A stretch of 64,000 nt of DNA from Aurantiochytrium sp. KH105. Lineage: Eukaryota > Sar > Bigyra > Thraustochytrida > Thraustochytriidae. A program made the translations under genes and the position numbers. The stretch is from assembly GCA_003116975.1 (NCBI GenBank), contig BGKB01000059.1, positions 1 to 64,000 on the forward strand, read 5' to 3'. Numbering within the stretch: the stretch's first letter is position 1; each line of letters opens with the position of its first letter. Shown here piece by piece: positions 204 to 62,435 of this stretch. Under the pieces are notes generated by a model that worked only from the letters and a program-made list of their open reading frames with translations, searched no databases and was not told where the DNA came from.

Positions 204-3200
204 ATGAATCGCGAGGCCAAAGGCAGGTCGAGTCTCGCGAGAGAGACCGTGGGGAGGGTGAAGAGCTTGATTGCGCTTTTCAACTCAGGTCGCGTTGGCA
301 AATCGTACGCTAAGGCCGAGGTGTACGAAGTCGCGCGGGCAGAAGCGGAGCTCCAGACTGCCGCCTCTGAGCAGAGAGAGGCGTATCTAGAGGTTCCCAA
401 GGTCATCGACGATCTTACCGTCCTCGTCGTGCACGATCCCACAGACGAGACGGTGGCCGAGCAGCTGGTTGACGCGATCCAGCCCCGCCTCAGCTTGCCC
501 GTACGCATCGCCAGCCACGTCGCAGAGACCGAACAGGAGGCCAAAAATGCCGAGGTCGCTCTCCTTCTCGTCAGCATGGCATTTGAAGACAATTGGGAGC
601 TCATTGAAGCAGTGGCAAAGGTGCTCCCCAACTCACTTGTTCCAATCCTCATCGACGAAGCCATGGTTAATCCAAAGGAATGGAAGGGCGCGCTTGCCTG
701 GTACATCTCCGATGACCTGCTCATCGACTATTGTAAGCCCGCAATGGACGCCACTAACGAGGTGATGACCGAAGCTCTTGCTGCAAAAGGCCGTGTCGCA
801 GATGCGCCTTGCTACCGGAGCTTTCACGCCTTCCTCTCGCACGAGCGGGGCAAAAACAAATGGGTACACAAGATGGCCATCGAACTCGCGTTGCGACTCC
901 GTGACCACGACATTGACGTCTGGCTCGACGCTCAGCAAGTGTCTGGTAGTATTCATAAAAGTGTGGCTGGTGGCATCGACTCGTCTACCGTATTCCTCGT
1001 TTTCGCGACCGAAGGGTACATGCAACGGATCAACAACGGCGACAAAACAGACGACTGCCTCAAGGAATTTGTATATGCCAGCAACAAACGCTTCAACCAG
1101 ACCGTGGTCGCCGCGTTAGAATCGGACATGGCCCGGCCGGCAACCATGTGGACGGGCCGATTCAAGCTCGCCCTCGCAAGACAGGTACCGGTGGACCTTT
1201 CGCAAAACATGGGCGAAACGTTTTCGGACAAGGCGATCAAACGTCTCGCCAACGCCATTCGCACGCGCATTGAGACCCCCTTGGCTTCATCGGGCCTCAC
1301 CCCACTGCAACGCAACTTCTATTCTCGCATTGGCCCTTACGACTCAGAGGTATGGGCCAGGGGCAAGGCGGAGAGTTTCACTGCTGGCACGCGGAGCTGG
1401 ATCATTGACGAGCTGTGCGATTGGTACAAAATGGAGCAGAGTGCCGTCTTTCTTCTCGTGGGCGACGGCGGCATCGGCAAGAGCGTCATCATGGCCGAGC
1501 TTTGCCACCGTGGGGGCGCTCTCATGACTGACGAAGATGTCAAAAAGAGCCAGGCTGATGAAAGCACTGTGTTACGCCGAAAGTCGTCTCGGGTGCGCAG
1601 CTTGTGGCGTCGTAGCAAGAAAGAGCGCCAGCCAATCTTGGTGGCGGCGTACCATTTCTTTCGACACGATGATGGGACCGCGGCTTCACCTACTGAAGCA
1701 CTCTTGAGCGTTGCTTGGCAACTTTGTAAGACCGTGCCGGGCTTCCCTGAAGCACTCGACCAAGCAAGCTTTAAAGGCCTTCGTGAAACGTCACTAGCGG
1801 GTCTTTTCAAGACTTTTCTCGCCGATCCTCTGAACAAGCTCGGCTCAGACCAGATGCGTCAAGTGGTTGTGCTCGACGCTCTCGACGAAAGCAGTAACAG
1901 TGACGGTATTCTACGCGATATCATCCGCACGTGGGAAAAACTGATGCCGGCATGGCTCCGCTTGGTTGTGGGCATGCGTCCCGAAGGCGAGATTCAGCGC
2001 GGCATCACCAACAACAGTCTTGACTTCAAAGTGCTGGAGCTCAACGATGAAGAGAACTTTCGCGACATCGAGTTATACATCGAGAACCTGCTGCGCGACA
2101 AGAGAGATATCGTGGAACAAAAGGACGTTGCATCTTGCGCCAAGATTCTTGTTGAACGCTCCGAAGGTCTCTTTCTCTGGGCGAGCTTCCTGCCCGAGAC
2201 CCTGGAGCGGATGCACGAGGGGAAAAAAGGGGGACTGCTGACCTTGCAGGACATCTCTCACGAAGACGCCATTCCTAATGGGCTTGGCGGCATGTTTCAC
2301 GAGTACTTTGGGCGTCTGCAAGACAAAGTTGGCGGAGAGACAGTGTACAAGATGCTCTTAGCGCCGATCGTAGCAGCTCGCGAACCGCTGAGCGTCGAGC
2401 AGCTAAGCGTAATTCTACAATTGCACGAGGATGAGATGCACGATATGCTTGACGACGCAAGATGCCTCTTGTTCCGAGGCGGCGATGGCCGAGTGGCACT
2501 GATCCATAAGCGCATGGCAGACTGGCTCTCAGATAGAAAGCAGAGCGGAAGACGACTATGCGTGAAAAAGGAAGATGGACATGAAGCCTTGGCCAAATAC
2601 TGCAGCTCGCACGAAGATGCCTTCTCGCTCCGCCACGCCATCTTTCATAGCGTCAAGAGCGGCGACCAAGCAGGTGCCTTCAAGCTTCTGAATGACTTTG
2701 CATGGGTGAAAAAGGTCATTTCTATCGGTGACGACGAAGGGCAAAGACGCGCTACAATCGGGAACCTCATTCGCGACTGCGTCAAACTCGGCATCTACTT
2801 TGCCCGCGAAAGTGATACGCCCCTCTTTCTCAGCAAAACAGTGCATGCCCTCAGCTACGATCCCAACGAACTTGCCTCGCAAGTTCTGGCGCGTCTAGGT
2901 CACAACGCCGAGGATCCCATTGCACTCGATCTGCAAGCACCCGATCGGCCATGGCTGGAGCCTATTTGCGTCACCCTTCCTCATCCTCGCGACCCCTTGC
3001 TCCACGAGCTAAAGGGGCACTCTGGCACGGTCAGGAGCGTGGCGATACAGGGCGAAATTATCGTTTCCGGTTCCTACGACAATACGGTGCGCATCTGGAG
3101 CGCTGCTTCAGGCGAGGAGCAGCACTTGCTGAATGGCCACTCTGGTCCGGTATATAGCGTGGCGATTCAGGACGACGCAATCGTGTCTGGGTCTGAAGAC

Positions 3201-3932
3201 AAGACGGTGCGCATCTGGAATGCCACGGTTGGCGAGGAGCAGCACATCTTCGAGGGGCACACTGACCGGGTCTACAGCGTGGCGATTGATGGCAATACAA
3301 TTGTTTCTGGATCAAGGGACAAGACTGTTCGAATCTGGAACGCTACGTCGGGCGAGGAGGAGCATGTCTTGAAGGGGCACTCTGATTGGGTCAGGAGCGT
3401 GGCGATTCAGGGTGCTACAGTCGTGTCAGGATCCGACGACAAGACGGTGCGCATCTGGGACGCTACGTCCGGCGAGGAAGCGCACGTGTTAACAGGGCAC
3501 TCCGATTGGGTCAGAAGCGTGGCGATTGAAGGCGAAACAATCGTTTCTGGGTCCGATGACAATACGGTGCGCATCTGGAACGCTACGTCGGGCGAGGAAC
3601 AACACGTCTTGAAGGGGCACTCTGATTCGGTCACTAGCGTGGCGATTGAGAGCGACATAATTGTTTCACAGTCTGATGATGAAACGCGGTACTGGAACGC
3701 CCGAACGGGCGAGGAAGTCGACGCAGAGGAGGCAGAAGCCTCGATTCCACCTGGAACGAGCACGTTGGCGAACGTTGAGAACGGAACGCACTTGAAGCTT
3801 GCCGGAGGCATTGGTTTCACGACAAATCGCAACATCAATGGGAAAGTTCGACAGGGGAATGTCTACGTTCTCGGCGACGCGAGCGGAATGGTTCACATTT
3901 TGCATGCTCAAAGTATCGAATCGGAGACCTGA
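204..3932 (+). CDS. TIR-NACHT-WD40 protein (NLR/STAND-like signalling NTPase)
   Basis: About 1242 aa from the ATG at 204. The frame stays open upstream to a GTG at 51, but that stretch is Arg/Gly-rich leader. Residues about 70-190 look like a degenerate first TIR-like alpha/beta domain. Residues about 205-300 are a clearer TIR domain: an FHAFLSHE strand, a DVWLDAQQV box 2 and CLKEF, whose Glu sits where catalytic TIR NADases carry theirs. The NACHT NTPase has a Walker A GDGGIGKS near residue 420 and a Walker B VVVLDALDES near 555. Six 40-residue WD40 units follow (about 936-1170), unusually alike, then a divergent tail. The family works as oligomerising switches: WD40 senses, NACHT assembles, the N-terminal effector signals. 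A role in self/non-self recognition or cell death is inference from architecture. The architecture call is firm; ligand and output are unknown. Confidence 0.87.
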   Translation: MNREAKGRSSLARETVGRVKSLIALFNSGRVGKSYAKAEVYEVARAEAELQTAASEQREAYLEVPKVIDDLTVLVVHDPTDETVAEQLVDAIQPRLSLPVRIASHVAETEQEAKNAEVALLLVSMAFEDNWELIEAVAKVLPNSLVPILIDEAMVNPKEWKGALAWYISDDLLIDYCKPAMDATNEVMTEALAAKGRVADAPCYRSFHAFLSHERGKNKWVHKMAIELALRLRDHDIDVWLDAQQVSGSIHKSVAGGIDSSTVFLVFATEGYMQRINNGDKTDDCLKEFVYASNKRFNQTVVAALESDMARPATMWTGRFKLALARQVPVDLSQNMGETFSDKAIKRLANAIRTRIETPLASSGLTPLQRNFYSRIGPYDSEVWARGKAESFTAGTRSWIIDELCDWYKMEQSAVFLLVGDGGIGKSVIMAELCHRGGALMTDEDVKKSQADESTVLRRKSSRVRSLWRRSKKERQPILVAAYHFFRHDDGTAASPTEALLSVAWQLCKTVPGFPEALDQASFKGLRETSLAGLFKTFLADPLNKLGSDQMRQVVVLDALDESSNSDGILRDIIRTWEKLMPAWLRLVVGMRPEGEIQRGITNNSLDFKVLELNDEENFRDIELYIENLLRDKRDIVEQKDVASCAKILVERSEGLFLWASFLPETLERMHEGKKGGLLTLQDISHEDAIPNGLGGMFHEYFGRLQDKVGGETVYKMLLAPIVAAREPLSVEQLSVILQLHEDEMHDMLDDARCLLFRGGDGRVALIHKRMADWLSDRKQSGRRLCVKKEDGHEALAKYCSSHEDAFSLRHAIFHSVKSGDQAGAFKLLNDFAWVKKVISIGDDEGQRRATIGNLIRDCVKLGIYFARESDTPLFLSKTVHALSYDPNELASQVLARLGHNAEDPIALDLQAPDRPWLEPICVTLPHPRDPLLHELKGHSGTVRSVAIQGEIIVSGSYDNTVRIWSAASGEEQHLLNGHSGPVYSVAIQDDAIVSGSEDKTVRIWNATVGEEQHIFEGHTDRVYSVAIDGNTIVSGSRDKTVRIWNATSGEEEHVLKGHSDWVRSVAIQGATVVSGSDDKTVRIWDATSGEEAHVLTGHSDWVRSVAIEGETIVSGSDDNTVRIWNATSGEEQHVLKGHSDSVTSVAIESDIIVSQSDDETRYWNARTGEEVDAEEAEASIPPGTSTLANVENGTHLKLAGGIGFTTNRNINGKVRQGNVYVLGDASGMVHILHAQSIESET
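3013..3700 (+). repeat. In-gene tandem array of 120-bp WD40 units
   Basis: Six consecutive units of about 120 bp each encode one WD40 blade, with GHS near the start and VRIWNATSGEE near the end. Units 3-6 are nearly identical at DNA level, including silent positions. Neighbouring coding sequence is not repetitive. Such homogeneity points to recent duplication or gene conversion within the gene. Confidence 0.9.
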
Positions 3933-6224
3933 ACGTGTGCCCTGGCGACCGACTCTGATCCCATGTGATCGCTTACTGCATTCGCGGCAATTGTAGCGCA
4001 CCTACAATTTCTTGCACGTGTTAAGTTAACATCAGGAAGGAAGATTTTGAGGAGGTTTGTAATTTTTTTTGGCAGCAAAACGCGGAAATAGTAAGCACCA
4101 ATTATTCGAGGCGGCTAAAGTGGACTTTCTACTTTCTCTGGTGGGGCTAGGCTCCTGAATAGTGTCCCTGAGGTAAGCCATCCGCAAATGAGGTGGTTGG
4201 CGTCAGAGTCTCCTCTCGGGGAACGCCAGCGACGTCACAAACTCCGATGGCATGACGACGATTGCGAGAAGAATTCACAGCCTGCTTTTGTTATACCCCC
4301 ATGATTTTGCCGATGAGAAGAGATGATGCGAATTTGACCGAAATCTGAAGTAAGGAGTGGCTTGGAGATCGTGAGCAGCAGCATGAAATGGGTTGCAGCA
4401 ACTTTGATGGCAGCATTCGCGTTGCGGTGAATTGCGTTGCGGTGAATTGCGTTGTGGTAAATTGCGTTGCGGCAAATTGCGTTGCGGTGAATTGCCTTGT
4501 AGCAGCAAGTACAGAAAAGTCACTCCTGACCTGCTGCACGCTTCGGAGAAACAATAAGCGTTCGAAGCAGAGCTCAGCACATCCTGACGAGCGCTGATCC
4601 CATGGCAGGCGGCCCGTTGGAGGACGCGCGACGAGCACTGTCCAGCACCATCTCATTCTACAGTCGGAAAGTACTGCGCTTCCAGACGTACGTCATTGAG
4701 CTGACGGCCATGGGCTGGACCCAATGACGCAGAATCACATTCGTACCATTGAGAATGAGGTCCTCGCCATGTTGCGCCTGCGCTGCTGAGCGGTCGTTGC
4801 TGACTTTGATGACTGCTGTGTTCTCAAATGTGGCGTTTGCACATGCTGCTTTTGCGCATCGTGCTTGCAGGACACAGGCGATGGCACAGATGCTTAACAT
4901 CAGCACGTGGCAAGATGCGCGTCAAAGCCAGATGACGAAGAAGACCCGTTCTTTAGCGATTTCGCTGTCGTACAGCAAGCATGGACTAGGCCTCTAGCAC
5001 AGCGTCGACATCGGTACACGGCAGAGAAAAGTGAGGACGCACAGGTACGTGCCAATGTCCAGAACAAGCTGCGCCCACTCCTTAATCCGGACATTGTCGG
5101 CGAGAACTTCAGGTTCGAATGATTAATACCGGGAACTTTTGCGACGTCGGCCATCGAGCTCTCTGCCTCGATGAAGTGCTCACCGACGCTCGACATATTG
5201 CTAGCTCTCTTTCTCACTCCACGACCTTGCATGGAATAAAATGTGATGGAATGATCAAAACCAATCGCCAAAACTCGCTGTAGCCCAGTGTGGTGCTAAT
5301 CATCTTGTTGGCGAACATTAGTTCTTGGGTCTCCTTCTGGATGATAATGAGCTTGTTGCGCATGGAGGTTGCTCTTATCGCATGACATGACGTGGCGGAA
5401 GTGGTCGTTAAAGTGCGCTTTCACGAGACGGAAAAGCTCAAGCTGGCTCATGGCCTCGGCGTTTTCCATGCGTGTGACGAACTCTGGGATCTCGCGCAGA
5501 GGGCCGGTATGCAAAGCAAGTTTCTTTGATGTTGCATCTCGGCGCCGCTTGGTCTCCCTCCTCCTGCTGCAAGTCCTCAGCGTTCATCATAACAACGCGA
5601 ACTCTCCCTTCCCCTAGGCCGGCGCCGGGCTGGGTCGCTGGCACAGCGCGTGTGCATCCCGTCATCGCGGTTTCGCGAGGTTCTTCCCTCTTTGCGCTTT
5701 TTTCTCGCCCTGGCGGCCAGGCGAGAAGTCACGGCGCCAGCGATGCGATCCTGCGACCGCGTTGTCCGGCCTACGAGCAACGCCATCGGGCGCTGCGCCT
5801 GGCCGCGGCCGCGCTCCCCTCGAGCGAAGCAGCCTCATGCTGTTCGAGTTTTGAAATTCAAACCCCGCGAAATTAGACCAGCGCAGGGCAGAGGAGCAAG
5901 GGGAACAAAGAGAGGTCGAGACCCGGCATCATGATGGAGGCCAGGAAGCAAAGCAGCAGCAGCAGCTGCAGCCGCTGCAGGCGCGGCAGCCAGAGCCGGA
6001 TCTCGGCGGAGCGCGACTGCCGCTGGCGGGTCGGGGCGGCGCGCATCCTGGGCTGGCCTGGGCTGGCCTGGGCTCACTCGCGGTCTCCGCGCCGGGCGGA
6101 CGGCGCGCGCGAGCGCGTGCGGCGCCGGCCAGCGTCTGTCTGTCTCCGCGTGTGCCTCGCAGAAACGCCCCGGCGTGCGCGCAGTGGTTGCCGTCGTCGG
6201 CGCCGCTCGCGACCCGCGGCCGCC
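3933..6224. other. Intergenic region, 2.3 kb, no confident gene
   Basis: Only short open frames occur here. Two (minus strand 5296-5514 and plus strand 4907-5122) have non-repetitive, protein-like composition and could be decayed coding remnants, but I match neither to a family. A 15-bp minisatellite lies at about 4419-4495. From about 5640 onward the sequence becomes GC-rich and is probably the promoter and leader of the downstream kinase. Confidence 0.5.
4419..4495. repeat. Minisatellite, 15-bp unit, about 5 copies
   Basis: The unit GCGTTGCGGTGAATT repeats about five times head to tail with single-base variants (GTGGTAAATT, GCGGCAAATT). It lies in non-coding DNA. Confidence 0.85.
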
Positions 6225-54694: not shown

Positions 54695-56848
54695 CTATGG
54701 CTGGTGGTGCTGGTGGTGCTGGTGGTGGTGCTGCTGCTGATGCTGGCGCTGTTGCATCATCGAGAATTGCTGCTGCTGTTGTTGATGCTTTGTCAACGTG
54801 GCAATGATGCTCGCAAGCTGATCGGGAGAGGCAGCCGCAGCCACAGCAGACGCCGTAGCAGAAGGGCCATCCATTGGCCGGCCAGCCAAAGAGGGCAGAT
54901 GGGGCAATTTGAACATGGGAGACGATGTGGGCGAGGAAGCGAACGAAGCTCCGATCATGTGCGCGGCGGAATGGTCTCCGCGGCGCATGCGGTCGACGCG
55001 CTGGCGATAGTCTTCGTAGCGGTCCGAGAACTCCTTGGGTAAATCCTGCATGCGTTTCTTGCCATGCTGTTTCGCAAAAACACGGAGATCCGGAGCCTTG
55101 ACGATGGCCTTGATCTTACCGTACGTGCAAATGACTTCTACGGTGAAACGATTGGCAATTCGCCGGTGCGCGTCGAAGAGTGCCACATTTTGAGGCAGAA
55201 TCGAAATGTCGAGTATCACGAGGTCGTCCCGGACGTCGACCTTGGAAGCGCGGAGTTTGATGAGGCCATGCCTGTTGTTGGCGGCGCCAACGTAGTTTCT
55301 TTGATCGGTGCGAGACCATGTCACAACTGAGTCAAGCTGGCCGTCTTTGTAGGTGGCCCGTCCGTAGTTGTCGACGCCTTCGCCCTGACGCACGCGCACT
55401 TTGCCCCGCATGCGAATTGCAATTTTGTCGGGCGGGAATTGCACATTGTTGTTGGCGGCGCGCACGACGAGGTGCATCCTGCGGTACTTTGCATAAGCGT
55501 AGTAAACTTCCTGCTCGTACTGCGTTGGCGGCGGCAAGACCATCTTCAAGAGGTTTCGATCATAGTTGCGGTCGTCATCGGCAGGCTCAACGGCTTGGTT
55601 CTTTTTGGTCTTGGTCATGGTTTCGGGAAGACGTTGCGACTCGTCGCGCGCGCCGTCGGCCTCGACTTTTACGGGGTCCTCCTCTTCTTCGAGTTCTTGC
55701 GTGGCTCCGTACAGGTCATCCTGAGGTTCTCGTGCAGCAGAGTCTGGGGCGTGCAAGGCGGGACCGGCGAATTTAGGTGTACTCGCCACTGTGCCAAAGC
55801 AAAACATCGGGCTCTGCGCAGAGAGTAGCGGAGCTTGGTTGTTCGAAGAGGCCGCTGCTGCAGCGACGGCCGCGGCGTTTGAAAGCGTTGCGGGGAGCTG
55901 GGTCGACGGGCTCTTCTTGCCGCCGTTGCCGCCGCCATCATTATTGTTGTCATGGTCATTGGTGTTCTTCTTGTTGTTGGCGCTGTTGGCGAGGAGGTTC
56001 GCAAAGTTAATGTGGCTCGCGGCTTTCCTCTCGCCATCCATAACAGAGAGCATGTTTGCCAAATTGGGCACGGACGCCGTCGGGGACCCCTTGGCGGCAT
56101 TCGCGAGAACAGCAGCAAGCATGGCTGTCATTTTTTCGGGCGTGAAGGCAGGTTTCTTCACGGGCAAAGAGGGAGCCCCTGTTGGACTCGAGGCGTCAGA
56201 GCGAGCCTTCTCATTCGTGGCAACTTCTGACAGCGCTTCGAGGCCTGCAAATTGTCCTATGGGGGATTGTGCCTGCGACTCGGACTCGGGCTGCGGTAAG
56301 GGAACGAAGGAGACCAAGGGAAGTGGGGACGAAGACAGGGTCGAGGACGAGGAAGACGAGGTCATGGACTGTGCCGAGGAAGACGACGACGACGACGACG
56401 ACGACAACGACGACGAGGCAGTGGGGAAGGGTGCAGAGGAGGCGAAGGCTGCGGATGCAAATGGGCCGCCGGGGAGTCCTGTGCGTACCGAGGGTGGCCG
56501 TAGCGCCTCGAGCAGGTGCTCTTTGGCGGCAAGGCGCTGCGCGCCCTGCGTCGCGTTCGTCTTCGCGGTTCCCCCGAGCCCAAACCGCTTGAGCGCGCCC
56601 GCGTCCGCGCGTGCGCCGCGGCCCGGGCCCGGGCCGGCGGCGGCGTCGGGCGCTGCGCCTGCGCCTGTCTGCGCCTCCTCCGCGCGCCCCTCCCCCCCGC
56701 GCTCGGCCGCGACGCGCGCGTGCTTGTCGCCGCCGGGGGCCGCGTGCAGGAGGCGCGTGTCGGCGGCGGCATCATGGTCGATCTCCTCGCGCTTGCGCTT
56801 CGCCGCCTCGCCGCGCGCGCCGCCGGACATACTCGCGGGCTGCGCCAT
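54695..56848 (-). CDS. Putative regulatory protein with unrecognised domain (paralogue A)
   Basis: 717 aa from the ATG at 56848 (MAQPASMSGG), followed by an NLS-like KRKREE. The frame above it starts at a GTG. Residues 60-430 are low-complexity (Ser runs from a GAC-type repeat at 56383-56409, Asn/Asp runs, Ala runs). Residues about 439-624 form a compact, beta-rich domain beginning EVYYAYAKYRR, with KIAIRMRGKVRVRQ, LVILDISILPQNV and KAPDLRVFAKQHGKKR. The same domain, clearly related, is in the 61569-62435 gene. I do not recognise it; its size and setting suggest a DNA- or protein-binding domain of a transcription factor (inference). The C-terminus is a Gln/His-rich tail (QQQQQQ, HHHQHHQHHQP). 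Confidence 0.7.
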   Translation of the reverse strand: MAQPASMSGGARGEAAKRKREEIDHDAAADTRLLHAAPGGDKHARVAAERGGEGRAEEAQTGAGAAPDAAAGPGPGRGARADAGALKRFGLGGTAKTNATQGAQRLAAKEHLLEALRPPSVRTGLPGGPFASAAFASSAPFPTASSSLSSSSSSSSSSAQSMTSSSSSSTLSSSPLPLVSFVPLPQPESESQAQSPIGQFAGLEALSEVATNEKARSDASSPTGAPSLPVKKPAFTPEKMTAMLAAVLANAAKGSPTASVPNLANMLSVMDGERKAASHINFANLLANSANNKKNTNDHDNNNDGGGNGGKKSPSTQLPATLSNAAAVAAAAASSNNQAPLLSAQSPMFCFGTVASTPKFAGPALHAPDSAAREPQDDLYGATQELEEEEDPVKVEADGARDESQRLPETMTKTKKNQAVEPADDDRNYDRNLLKMVLPPPTQYEQEVYYAYAKYRRMHLVVRAANNNVQFPPDKIAIRMRGKVRVRQGEGVDNYGRATYKDGQLDSVVTWSRTDQRNYVGAANNRHGLIKLRASKVDVRDDLVILDISILPQNVALFDAHRRIANRFTVEVICTYGKIKAIVKAPDLRVFAKQHGKKRMQDLPKEFSDRYEDYRQRVDRMRRGDHSAAHMIGASFASSPTSSPMFKLPHLPSLAGRPMDGPSATASAVAAAASPDQLASIIATLTKHQQQQQQFSMMQQRQHQQQHHHQHHQHHQP

Positions 56849-61568: not shown

Positions 61569-62435
61569 ATGGCGACGAGAGGGACGTGGACTCGAGAGGT
61601 TGACGAGATGGCAGAGACTTCCGGCAGCCCGCGGAAAAGACGACGGTCGCTTTGCTCGGCAGACGACACGATCGAGAGCTACTCGATGGCAGCGACCGTG
61701 TTGAGCTCGCCGGGGCAAGGGGTCGAAGACAGCGAAGATCTCCTACGTATCGTTGGTCAGCGTCCCGAGAACCAAGACCTCGCCGCAGCCGACGACGACA
61801 TGTTCTCCGTGCCTCCCCTTGAAATTCCAAAGCCTGAAGTCCTTGTGGCCTCAAGATGTGTTTACCACGCATTCACCGACTATCGAAAGTGGGTCGCGGT
61901 TCTCGATACGCAAAGATCCGACATACCATTGGAAATAAGCATCATTATGTCGGGGAAATGTCGTATCAAAATGGCTCAAAGACGAGATTGCGAAGAAGGC
62001 CAGAACTTCATTGTAGGTAATTGGTTGGACGAAGCGACCTGGACACACGACATTCCCCGGACTGTCGTGCAAGCTTCGGATGCACCCACGTTCATCTTAC
62101 AGGATAAAGCCTTGGTCCAAAGCGGGTGCGGGCGAGTCTTCCTTCAGGTCCCAATGAAGCCGTGGAAACTCGCACTATTGCTCCCTCAGGGAAAAAAACG
62201 CAATCTTTTTGACATCAGTGTCCGCTGTCGGTTTAGAGATGCAACAGTGCTAACCGTCAAGCTGCCACAAGTTGAAATTTTTTCGAAACCGCACAGAGGA
62301 ATACGTAATCTTCCTGATTCCTTTTGCTCTGACTTTGAACAGAAAAAGAATCAATACGAGCGTTTCCGTGACGAAACCTCTAGGACCTTACTGCATTTTA
62401 AATGTCGCGCAAAACCTCGTACTTTGCTAACATGA
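61569..62435 (+). CDS. Protein with unrecognised domain (paralogue B)
   Basis: 288 aa from the ATG at 61569 (MATRGTWTRE). A short basic/acidic N-terminus (KRRRSL) precedes one domain at about 97-280. It aligns with the C-terminal half of the 54695-56848 product: VYHAFTDYRKW with VYYAYAKYRRM; ISIIMSGKCRIKM with IAIRMRGKVRVRQ; VKLPQVEIFSKPHRGIRNLP with VKAPDLRVFAKQHGKKRMQD; then a closing charged helix. It lacks the low-complexity flanks of that protein. Function unknown. It converges with the minus-strand gene ending at 62681. Position 4.7 kb from its paralogue suggests an old local duplication. Confidence 0.72.
   Translation: MATRGTWTREVDEMAETSGSPRKRRRSLCSADDTIESYSMAATVLSSPGQGVEDSEDLLRIVGQRPENQDLAAADDDMFSVPPLEIPKPEVLVASRCVYHAFTDYRKWVAVLDTQRSDIPLEISIIMSGKCRIKMAQRRDCEEGQNFIVGNWLDEATWTHDIPRTVVQASDAPTFILQDKALVQSGCGRVFLQVPMKPWKLALLLPQGKKRNLFDISVRCRFRDATVLTVKLPQVEIFSKPHRGIRNLPDSFCSDFEQKKNQYERFRDETSRTLLHFKCRAKPRTLLT

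Follow-up and report, generated by a model that had tools for sequence, protein, structure and literature searches.

Introduction

Among the known systems closest to the gene analyzed here are the HNWD/NWD NOD-like receptors (NLRs) of fungi, such as those encoded by het-d, het-e, and het-r of Podospora, which join NACHT to a following array of WD40 units with high internal identity. The fungal units are exchanged within and between loci, their number varies, and diversifying selection has been reported at codons 7, 9, 25, and 27 of the unit, around the conserved codons 8 and 26 (PMC1805685). A 2025 numbering of the fungal unit lists more variable sites (PMC12222747). We analyzed a TIR-NACHT-WD40 gene at the very start of contig C59 (BGKB01000059.1) of the thraustochytrid Aurantiochytrium sp. 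KH105; the window, meaning the whole stretch of DNA under analysis, is the first 64 kb (64,000 nucleotides) of this contig. This gene is part of a large family, and the WD40 units of many members are hypervariable at five sites; judged by sequence register, four of these match the selected codons of het-d and het-e. We put the probability at roughly two in three that this labyrinthulomycete family consists of non-self receptors that diversify, signal through a TIR NADase, and arose in convergence with the fungal HNWD NLRs.

The thraustochytrid family shares with HNWD a NACHT-WD40 core, the exchange of units, and, at positions 7, 9, 23, and 25, the placement of variable codons. Its unit is two residues shorter between the two variable pairs and has an extra variable codon at position 6. 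The fungal effector is a HET domain, whereas the thraustochytrid effector is TIR_2 with a putative NADase Glu; remote similarity between HET and TIR, and HET homologs in stramenopiles, have been reported (PMC4986451). The thraustochytrid family also has an extra N-terminal alpha/beta domain and a stramenopile host, and it occupies at least 37 places over apparently two haplotypes, compared to ten members in P. anserina.

Other known systems resemble the family in part. Plant and metazoan TIR-NLRs likewise join a TIR effector, a switch of the STAND class (signal transduction ATPases with numerous domains), and a repeat sensor, but plant TIR-NLRs use NB-ARC and LRR in place of NACHT and WD40. 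TEP1, NWD1, and NPHP3 combine DUF4062-NACHT with WD40 or other repeats, so that a TIR-like effector stands beside NACHT, with WD40 behind it in several, and the thraustochytrid NTPase matches the NPHP3_N profile. Their effector is DUF4062 rather than TIR_2, and the KH105 genome has DUF4062-NACHT proteins besides. No hypervariable units are known in human TEP1, NWD1, or NPHP3. TEP1 is described as an active NADase in a preprint (PMC13174449). The ROCO-LRR and NB-TPR proteins of brown algae are also candidate immune receptors of stramenopiles, with shuffled repeats and sites under positive selection, but their LRR and TPR units lie on separate exons and are reassorted by exon shuffling, and the accessible part of that paper contains no TIR-NACHT-WD40 protein (PMC11378527). 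Bacterial NACHT/TIR sensors diversified by diversity-generating retroelements (DGRs) are STAND/TIR conflict proteins with a hypervariable sensor as well; there, the variable region is a C-type lectin and mutagenesis is adenine directed (PMC10907252), whereas the thraustochytrid variation is not adenine directed. Counts of WD40 proteins of 290 in T. aureum ssp. strugatskii and 306 in H. fermentalgiana, versus about 200 in other close species, have been published (PMC8917795). In the part of the matching literature that we covered, on thraustochytrids and labyrinthulids and on protist NLR or TIR-NACHT proteins, no title or opening of an abstract describes the family.

Results

Domain architecture of the receptor gene

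The gene is a single open reading frame of 1242 amino acids on the forward strand (204..3932), one exon without an intron, with its ATG at 204 and its stop codon at 3930-3932. A putative allele on contig C88 supports this start, as the open frame there begins one codon before the equivalent ATG. In Pfam, the protein matched TIR_2 (residues 210-348; E=9.1e-10; 39.5 bits against a cutoff of 28), NPHP3_N, a NACHT-type P-loop domain (residues 395-577; E=9.8e-17), and WD40 (E=1.4e-48; six stretches). The original prediction, read from the letters of the DNA, had proposed a TIR-NACHT-WD40 chain, and the matches to TIR_2, NPHP3_N/NACHT, and WD40 are all significant and lie in that order, including the TIR match at residues 210-348. 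An N-terminal effector, a P-loop NTPase, and C-terminal repeats are thus present in one chain, which is the architecture of STAND NLR-like proteins. The features are as follows, all on the forward strand.

204..3932 (+): whole gene, TIR-NACHT-WD40 NLR-like protein; very start of contig C59; allele-like copy at C88:1187-4912 with 95% amino acid identity
387..818 (+): N-terminal flavodoxin-like alpha/beta domain, residues 62-205 (conservation in 31 rows, AlphaFold, Foldseek)
831..1247 (+): TIR domain (TIR_2, residues 210-348), putative NADase effector (Pfam, PDB profile matches)
1065..1067 (+): E288 of CLKEF (residues 285-289), putative NADase Glu (alignments; Asp in the C88 copy)
1386..1934 (+): NACHT-type STAND NTPase (NPHP3_N, residues 395-577; Pfam, E=9.8e-17)
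1461..1484 (+): Walker A, GDGGIGKS, residues 420-427 (GKS in 32 of 32 family rows)
1866..1889 (+): Walker B, VVLDALDE, residues 555-562 (kept in 32 of 32 family rows)
2001..2843 (+): strongly conserved stretch between NTPase and WD40 units, residues 600-880, probably helical/winged helix
3009..3728 (+): six WD40 units of 40 amino acids, 120 nucleotides each, putative sensor propeller (Pfam, unit alignment)
3729..3929 (+): C-terminal segment, probably the last propeller blade or blades (several family matches reach query residue 1237-1242)

Five codons of the WD40 unit are hypervariable

We aligned 176 WD40 units of 40 amino acids from 27 loci, each with at least 20 of 40 matches to the consensus. 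Entropy at positions 6, 7, 9, 23, and 25 was 2.76, 3.61, 3.22, 3.53, and 2.59 bits, respectively, compared to about 1.5 bits or less at the other 35 positions. A stricter set held 107 units from 18 homogenized loci (at least 30 of 40 matches) and omitted nine loci, among them the window gene, whose units are of the old type or few in number. In this set, the five codons varied at all three nucleotides while adjoining codons were nearly fixed, giving sharp edges, and the cutoff by itself depresses backbone variation. Codons 7, 9, and 23 match the described top-face interaction hotspots R1-2, R1, and D-1 of WD40 propellers in a register mapped by sequence (PMC3419727). By our own mapping of the register, HNWD codons 7, 9, 25, and 27, with 8 and 26 conserved, correspond to 7, 9, 23, and 25, with 8 and 24, of the 40-residue thraustochytrid unit.

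We then compared the proportions of nonsynonymous (pN) and synonymous (pS) differences gene by gene, using 156 units (at least 26 matches) from the 18 genes with four or more canonical units. In 13 of the 18 genes, pN at the five codons was 3.1 to 24 times the pS elsewhere in the same gene. The 156 units carry 141 distinct four-site combinations, and over all pairs pN was 0.58 at the five codons versus 0.10 elsewhere (pS, 0.51 versus 0.34). Among 111 close pairs within genes, pN was 0.54 at the five codons versus 0.018 elsewhere, where pS was 0.045. Mean amino acid identity among the units of a gene exceeded 85% over all 40 positions in 4 of the 18 genes and was at least 87% over the 35 backbone positions in 12; the window gene had 72% and 78%, respectively. 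From these patterns, we infer that diversifying selection is the cause of the five-codon variability.

Several observations weigh against the reading of the family as diversifying non-self receptors. Five of the 18 genes (L009, L010, L061, L063, and L065), among them the window gene and its C88 copy, lack the contrast (ratio, 0.9 to 1.5). Pooled pN/pS within the five codons of the 156 units is just 1.0 to 1.3, a range blurred by saturation and path counting, and codon 20, at which two serine codon families occur, likewise reaches 1.28. The contrast in the close pairs and in the sets with identical backbones is partly built in because these sets were picked by backbone identity. Between the six units of the window gene and those of its C88 copy, the five codons differ at 4 of 90 nucleotides and the rest at 23 of 630, and the C88 copy may be catalytically dead, since the Glu at position 288 is an Asp there (E288D).

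A pooled ratio near 1 would also suit neutral concerted evolution of an ordinary STAND signaling family with no non-self role. Unequal exchange by itself can homogenize repeats, and some WD40 proteins of Protista have an elevated internal identity, with about 2% of that group's WD40 proteins above 0.4 (PMC5587647). However, neutral homogenization would hit the five codons too, and these are the ones predicted to face the ligand, so we regard the neutral account as improbable and favor diversifying selection.

Units are exchanged between loci while the five codons stay different

An identical 105-nucleotide backbone was found in 15 units from nine loci, and all 15 differ at the five codons (3 to 13 of 15 nucleotides; mean, 8.1). 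Among the smaller sets of identical backbones listed, two units of L019 are identical at the five codons as well and represent a recent duplication. Between the nine loci, the bodies differ by 4 to 19% from NACHT onward and by 7 to 42.5% in TIR. Thus, units have been exchanged between loci with diverged bodies while their five codons remained different. The bodies look mosaic and appear to recombine too, as their divergence is uneven: L013 and L018 differ by 24% in TIR versus 4% in NACHT. For the upstream flanks of L016, L017, L020, and L068 and for parts of the L013 and L018 bodies, the nearest relatives differ, a sign of ectopic recombination between loci; the L016 and L017 flanks best match L068 and L020 among the rows listed. 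L016 and L017, with bodies 94.9% identical, are alleles or paralogs, and over their nine units the five codons differ at 46 of 135 nucleotides versus 53 of 945 elsewhere. Variable residues differ in two of three units between L041 and L043, in three of three between L066 and L054, and in none of three between L059 and L061.

The sharp boundaries between hypervariable and almost invariant codons, and the 15 of 15 units that differ on one backbone, could also be the work of a dedicated mutator, DGR-like or other, that rewrites the five codons and leaves selection a secondary role. The variable codons are, in addition, nearly independent of one another, with weak links between 6 and 7 and between 6 and 9 (96 units). 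Adenine-directed mutagenesis of the DGR type was rejected: with a mean minor fraction of 0.034 at the 21 A positions of the backbone versus 0.020 to 0.037 for the other bases, adenines are no less stable there. Nor did we take the high pS at the variable codons (0.43 in close pairs) to prove a mutator: where a codon has undergone several changes, path counting overestimates pS. When pairs encoding the same amino acid were compared, the codon differed in just 19% at variable sites (0.11 to 0.37 by site) versus 8% in the backbone (maximum, 0.26). Against this mild synonymous rise, amino acid change at the five codons is up 6-fold over the 156 units; in the 111 close pairs, a set selected for backbone similarity, the rise is 31-fold. 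We therefore consider targeted hypermutation quite unlikely; selection on point mutations, together with unit exchange, explains the pattern with no special mutator.

The window gene is an older, quieter member

The C59 and C88 proteins differ at 58 of 1242 residues, E288D included; comparison of the two genes gave a low pN/pS (0.015/0.142 in NACHT and 0.022/0.068 in TIR). The five canonical units of the window gene show 21% nucleotide divergence outside the five variable codons and are old units. Between the copies, units 1 to 5 have no change at the five codons, while the sixth, degenerate unit has changed at residues 6, 23, and 25. We had considered a "frozen sensor," based on 0 of 75 nucleotides in five units, but with three of five variable residues changed in the sixth unit, we dropped this wording in favor of "no excess change." Slow sensor change is not unique to the window gene either, because the variable residues of L059 and L061 are unchanged in three units.

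By its sequence, the window gene is thus an older, quieter, old-type member that appears to be either stable or on its way out. Its old units, the lack of excess change at variable codons, and E288D on C88 would fit a retired or decaying receptor, whose sensor stopped diversifying and one copy of which lost its catalytic Glu. We find this doubtful, however, as both copies are full length with low pN/pS between them, the last unit differs at three variable residues, and Asp may keep some activity; a stable sensor would also fit a conserved ligand, and L059 and L061 are slow to change too.

Putative TIR effector and NACHT switch

The original prediction placed a Glu at the NADase position within CLKEF. 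We searched PDB sequences with a profile built from 19 TIR domains of the KH105 genome, other TIR proteins included. The conserved Glu of the profile aligned with the Glu of "DWVHKE" in Caenorhabditis elegans TIR-1 and of "DWCWDE" in Cat1, which we take to be the NADase Glu of those proteins; the PDB title "Sarm1 E642A" agrees. SARM1, AbTIR, Roq1, and RPP1 were matched as well. The local alignments to 3h16 and 7uwg, as well as the AbTIR match (8g83; profile residues 1-69), end short of the Glu. The TIR of L021 as a single sequence gave no PDB match. All 19 TIR rows of the profile have the CLKEF Glu, and in the family alignment, 31 of 32 rows cover the site, with 30 Glu and 1 Asp, the C88 copy. 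By these sequence alignments, E288 corresponds to the predicted NADase position.

In the predicted structure of the two N-terminal domains (predicted local distance difference test [pLDDT], 72), E288 is model residue 275, within a helix at model residues 271-286 that follows the third TIR strand. Foldseek ranked SARM1 third (E=5.3e-4; probability, 1.00) behind two low-TM non-TIR matches, with the TLR1 TIR ninth (TMt, 0.62). All 31 family members examined match the TIR profile. For residues 14-380 of the protein encoded by the window gene, none of the three matches up to E=10 was to DUF4062; in two further members, the best DUF4062 match had E=0.23, and NCBIfam and PADLOC profile scans gave weak matches only. 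The TIR domain of the window gene is a putative NADase effector.

The Walker A and B motifs, claimed to be intact, are so throughout, with GKS and VVLDALDE both in 32 of 32 family rows. The gene bodies, i.e., the working parts, are maintained by purifying selection: over 435 pairs from 30 loci, mean pN/pS was 0.34 in TIR, 0.32 in NACHT, 0.33 in the following region, and 0.53 in the N-terminal domain.

The N-terminal alpha/beta domain

A second, degenerate TIR had been proposed ahead of the clear one. Residues 62-205 do form a conserved domain, found across 31 family rows, and AlphaFold modeled it as a flavodoxin-like alpha/beta fold (pLDDT, 84.7; predicted template modeling score, 0.84), in agreement with the alpha/beta nature that had been assumed. 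Sequence comparisons gave no support for membership in the TIR family. Alignment to the TIR alignment with hhalign gave a probability of 0.9%, and a PDB sequence search with the domain gave nothing below E=0.21 and no match to a TIR. Foldseek was nonspecific, returning ten AdiA chains first (E=3.1e-4 to 6.1e-4) and then receivers and TIRs (TcpB, 1.1e-3; RPS4, 8.8e-3). The Trp and Glu of the NWELIE stretch vary across family rows. The domain could be either receiver-like or a TIR that has degenerated.

Host and genome

The genome comprises 76 Mb in 367 contigs and appears to hold both haplotypes because many matches are paired; C59 and C88 are matched near 1 kb and near 196 kb. A single COX1 match lies on contig C366 (L073; GC content of the fetched locus, 37.6%). 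The COX1 frame has no TTA until two consecutive ones at codons 532 and 533, while the shifted frames hold 26 and 15. Two long frames lie nearby, with starts and ends set by eye. In one, the only TTA codons are numbers 8 and 38, ahead of the probable start; the other contains seven, beginning with codon 251, where the frame probably ends. Under NCBI table 23 (Thraustochytrium mitochondria, TTA as stop), COX1 terminates at TTA TTA. Matches to a PfaA-like polyunsaturated fatty acid (PUFA) synthase occur on C72 and C155 (930 bits against a cutoff of 1010), with a further part on C290 and C61, and C72 also bears receptor-family members. We treat the PUFA match as supporting only because the PfaA-type family also matches, below the cutoff, in 11 of 14 control genomes. 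From the mitochondrial code, with this support, we conclude that the host is a labyrinthulomycete, in line with the stramenopile that had been predicted.

Elsewhere in the window, a short tandem array with a unit like aattgcgttgcggtg (by eye) lies downstream of the receptor gene at 4420-4500. Two proteins without a Pfam match at E≤0.001, at 54695-56848 (-) and 61569-62435 (+), have C-terminal stretches that look alike by eye (APDLRVFAKQHGK... and LPQVEIFSKPHRG..., respectively).

Family size and the wider repertoire

Searching the genome with the window protein gave at least 37 long places, namely the query gene, its C88 copy (95%), and 35 further places at 61 to 76% identity; three of the 37 contain a single in-frame TGA. 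The count is a minimum, since just 37 of 636 candidates were scored, and it spans both haplotypes. With a homogenized WD40 region as the query, at least 53 separate arrays were found at 60% identity or more, the query's own included (104 of 651 candidates scored). TIR_2 gave at least 150 matches (150 of 258 candidates scored), and NPHP3_N gave 80 (138 of 138 scored). Pfam analysis of ten other loci identified one Roc-COR-TIR, four COR-TIR (in the stretch fetched), one ankyrin-TIR, one TIR alone, two DUF4062-NACHT, and one NPHP3_N-WD40. Given these mixed architectures, the family sits within a broad receptor-like repertoire.

The DUF4062-NACHT proteins at L001 (C59:196119-196655) and L003 (C145:17547-18125) have an NWD1-type winged helix and are TEP1/NPHP3-like, L003 with TPR in addition; L002 and L004 are likely second copies of L001 and L003. 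The (Roc-)COR-TIR proteins (L038, L022, L026, L031, and L040) form a second large receptor-like class, and some COR-TIR-type frames contain WD40 stretches with 40 to 44% identity to the homogenized units (C60:4552-5403 and C137:193200-194075). L025 (C36:463111) joins ankyrin repeats to a C-terminal TIR, and L028 (C17:491007) has a near-identical TIR. A prokaryotic origin was considered and set aside. The scan of the genome_contigs set with a TIR-NACHT alignment, with two peptide patterns, gave at least three loci, at just 27 to 28% identity, and there are therefore no close prokaryotic kin among the matches listed.

Many family members lie near contig ends. On contigs of known length of at least 100 kb, 13 of 23 members are less than 15 kb from an end versus 2.0 expected, and on all contigs of known length, the count is 21 of 31 versus 9.6 expected; six of the 37 members, on contigs of unknown length, are omitted. 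The enrichment may reflect a subtelomeric location or an effect of assembly breaks. An exact search for (TTAGGG)4, the one telomere repeat tried, gave 0 matches.

The receptors could serve allorecognition rather than pathogen defense, sensing variant forms of self proteins when cells touch or fuse, as het-d and het-e do with HET-C, and the coincidence of their variable positions with those of fungal incompatibility genes speaks for this. But the many other TIR/NACHT receptor-like genes point to a general defense repertoire, and allorecognition lacks a known partner gene; we regard it as possible but rather unlikely.

Discussion

We favor the reading that the family consists of diversifying non-self receptors. 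The mechanism that we propose is drawn by analogy with APAF-1, TIR-NLRs, and HET-E. The C-terminal WD40 propeller would be the sensor, the NACHT ATPase the switch, and TIR the output of a protein that would rest as an autoinhibited monomer. Once a ligand had bound the propeller's top face, the NACHT domain would be freed for oligomerization, and the oligomer would gather the TIR domains for NAD+ cleavage, which would lead to cell death or growth arrest. Specificity would be renewed as near-identical WD40 units are swapped between loci and diversifying selection acts on five codons per unit at the likely ligand-binding hotspots. We likewise infer the non-self purpose.

Slightly better than an even bet, in our view, is that a stramenopile independently evolved the fungal "hypervariable propeller" code as a germline non-self system, with a repertoire of TIR-NADase NLRs, circulating WD40 units that are often near contig ends, and five diversifying top-face codons. 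Hypervariable WD40 NLRs with unit exchange have been described in fungi, where they are partly incompatibility genes acting at cell fusion (PMC1805685 and PMC12222747). If the reading is true, the propeller code would be a general solution, tied neither to fungi nor to HET domains. It would also become testable which proteins the propellers bind, and whether TIR NADase suicide is directed against viruses or against neighbors.

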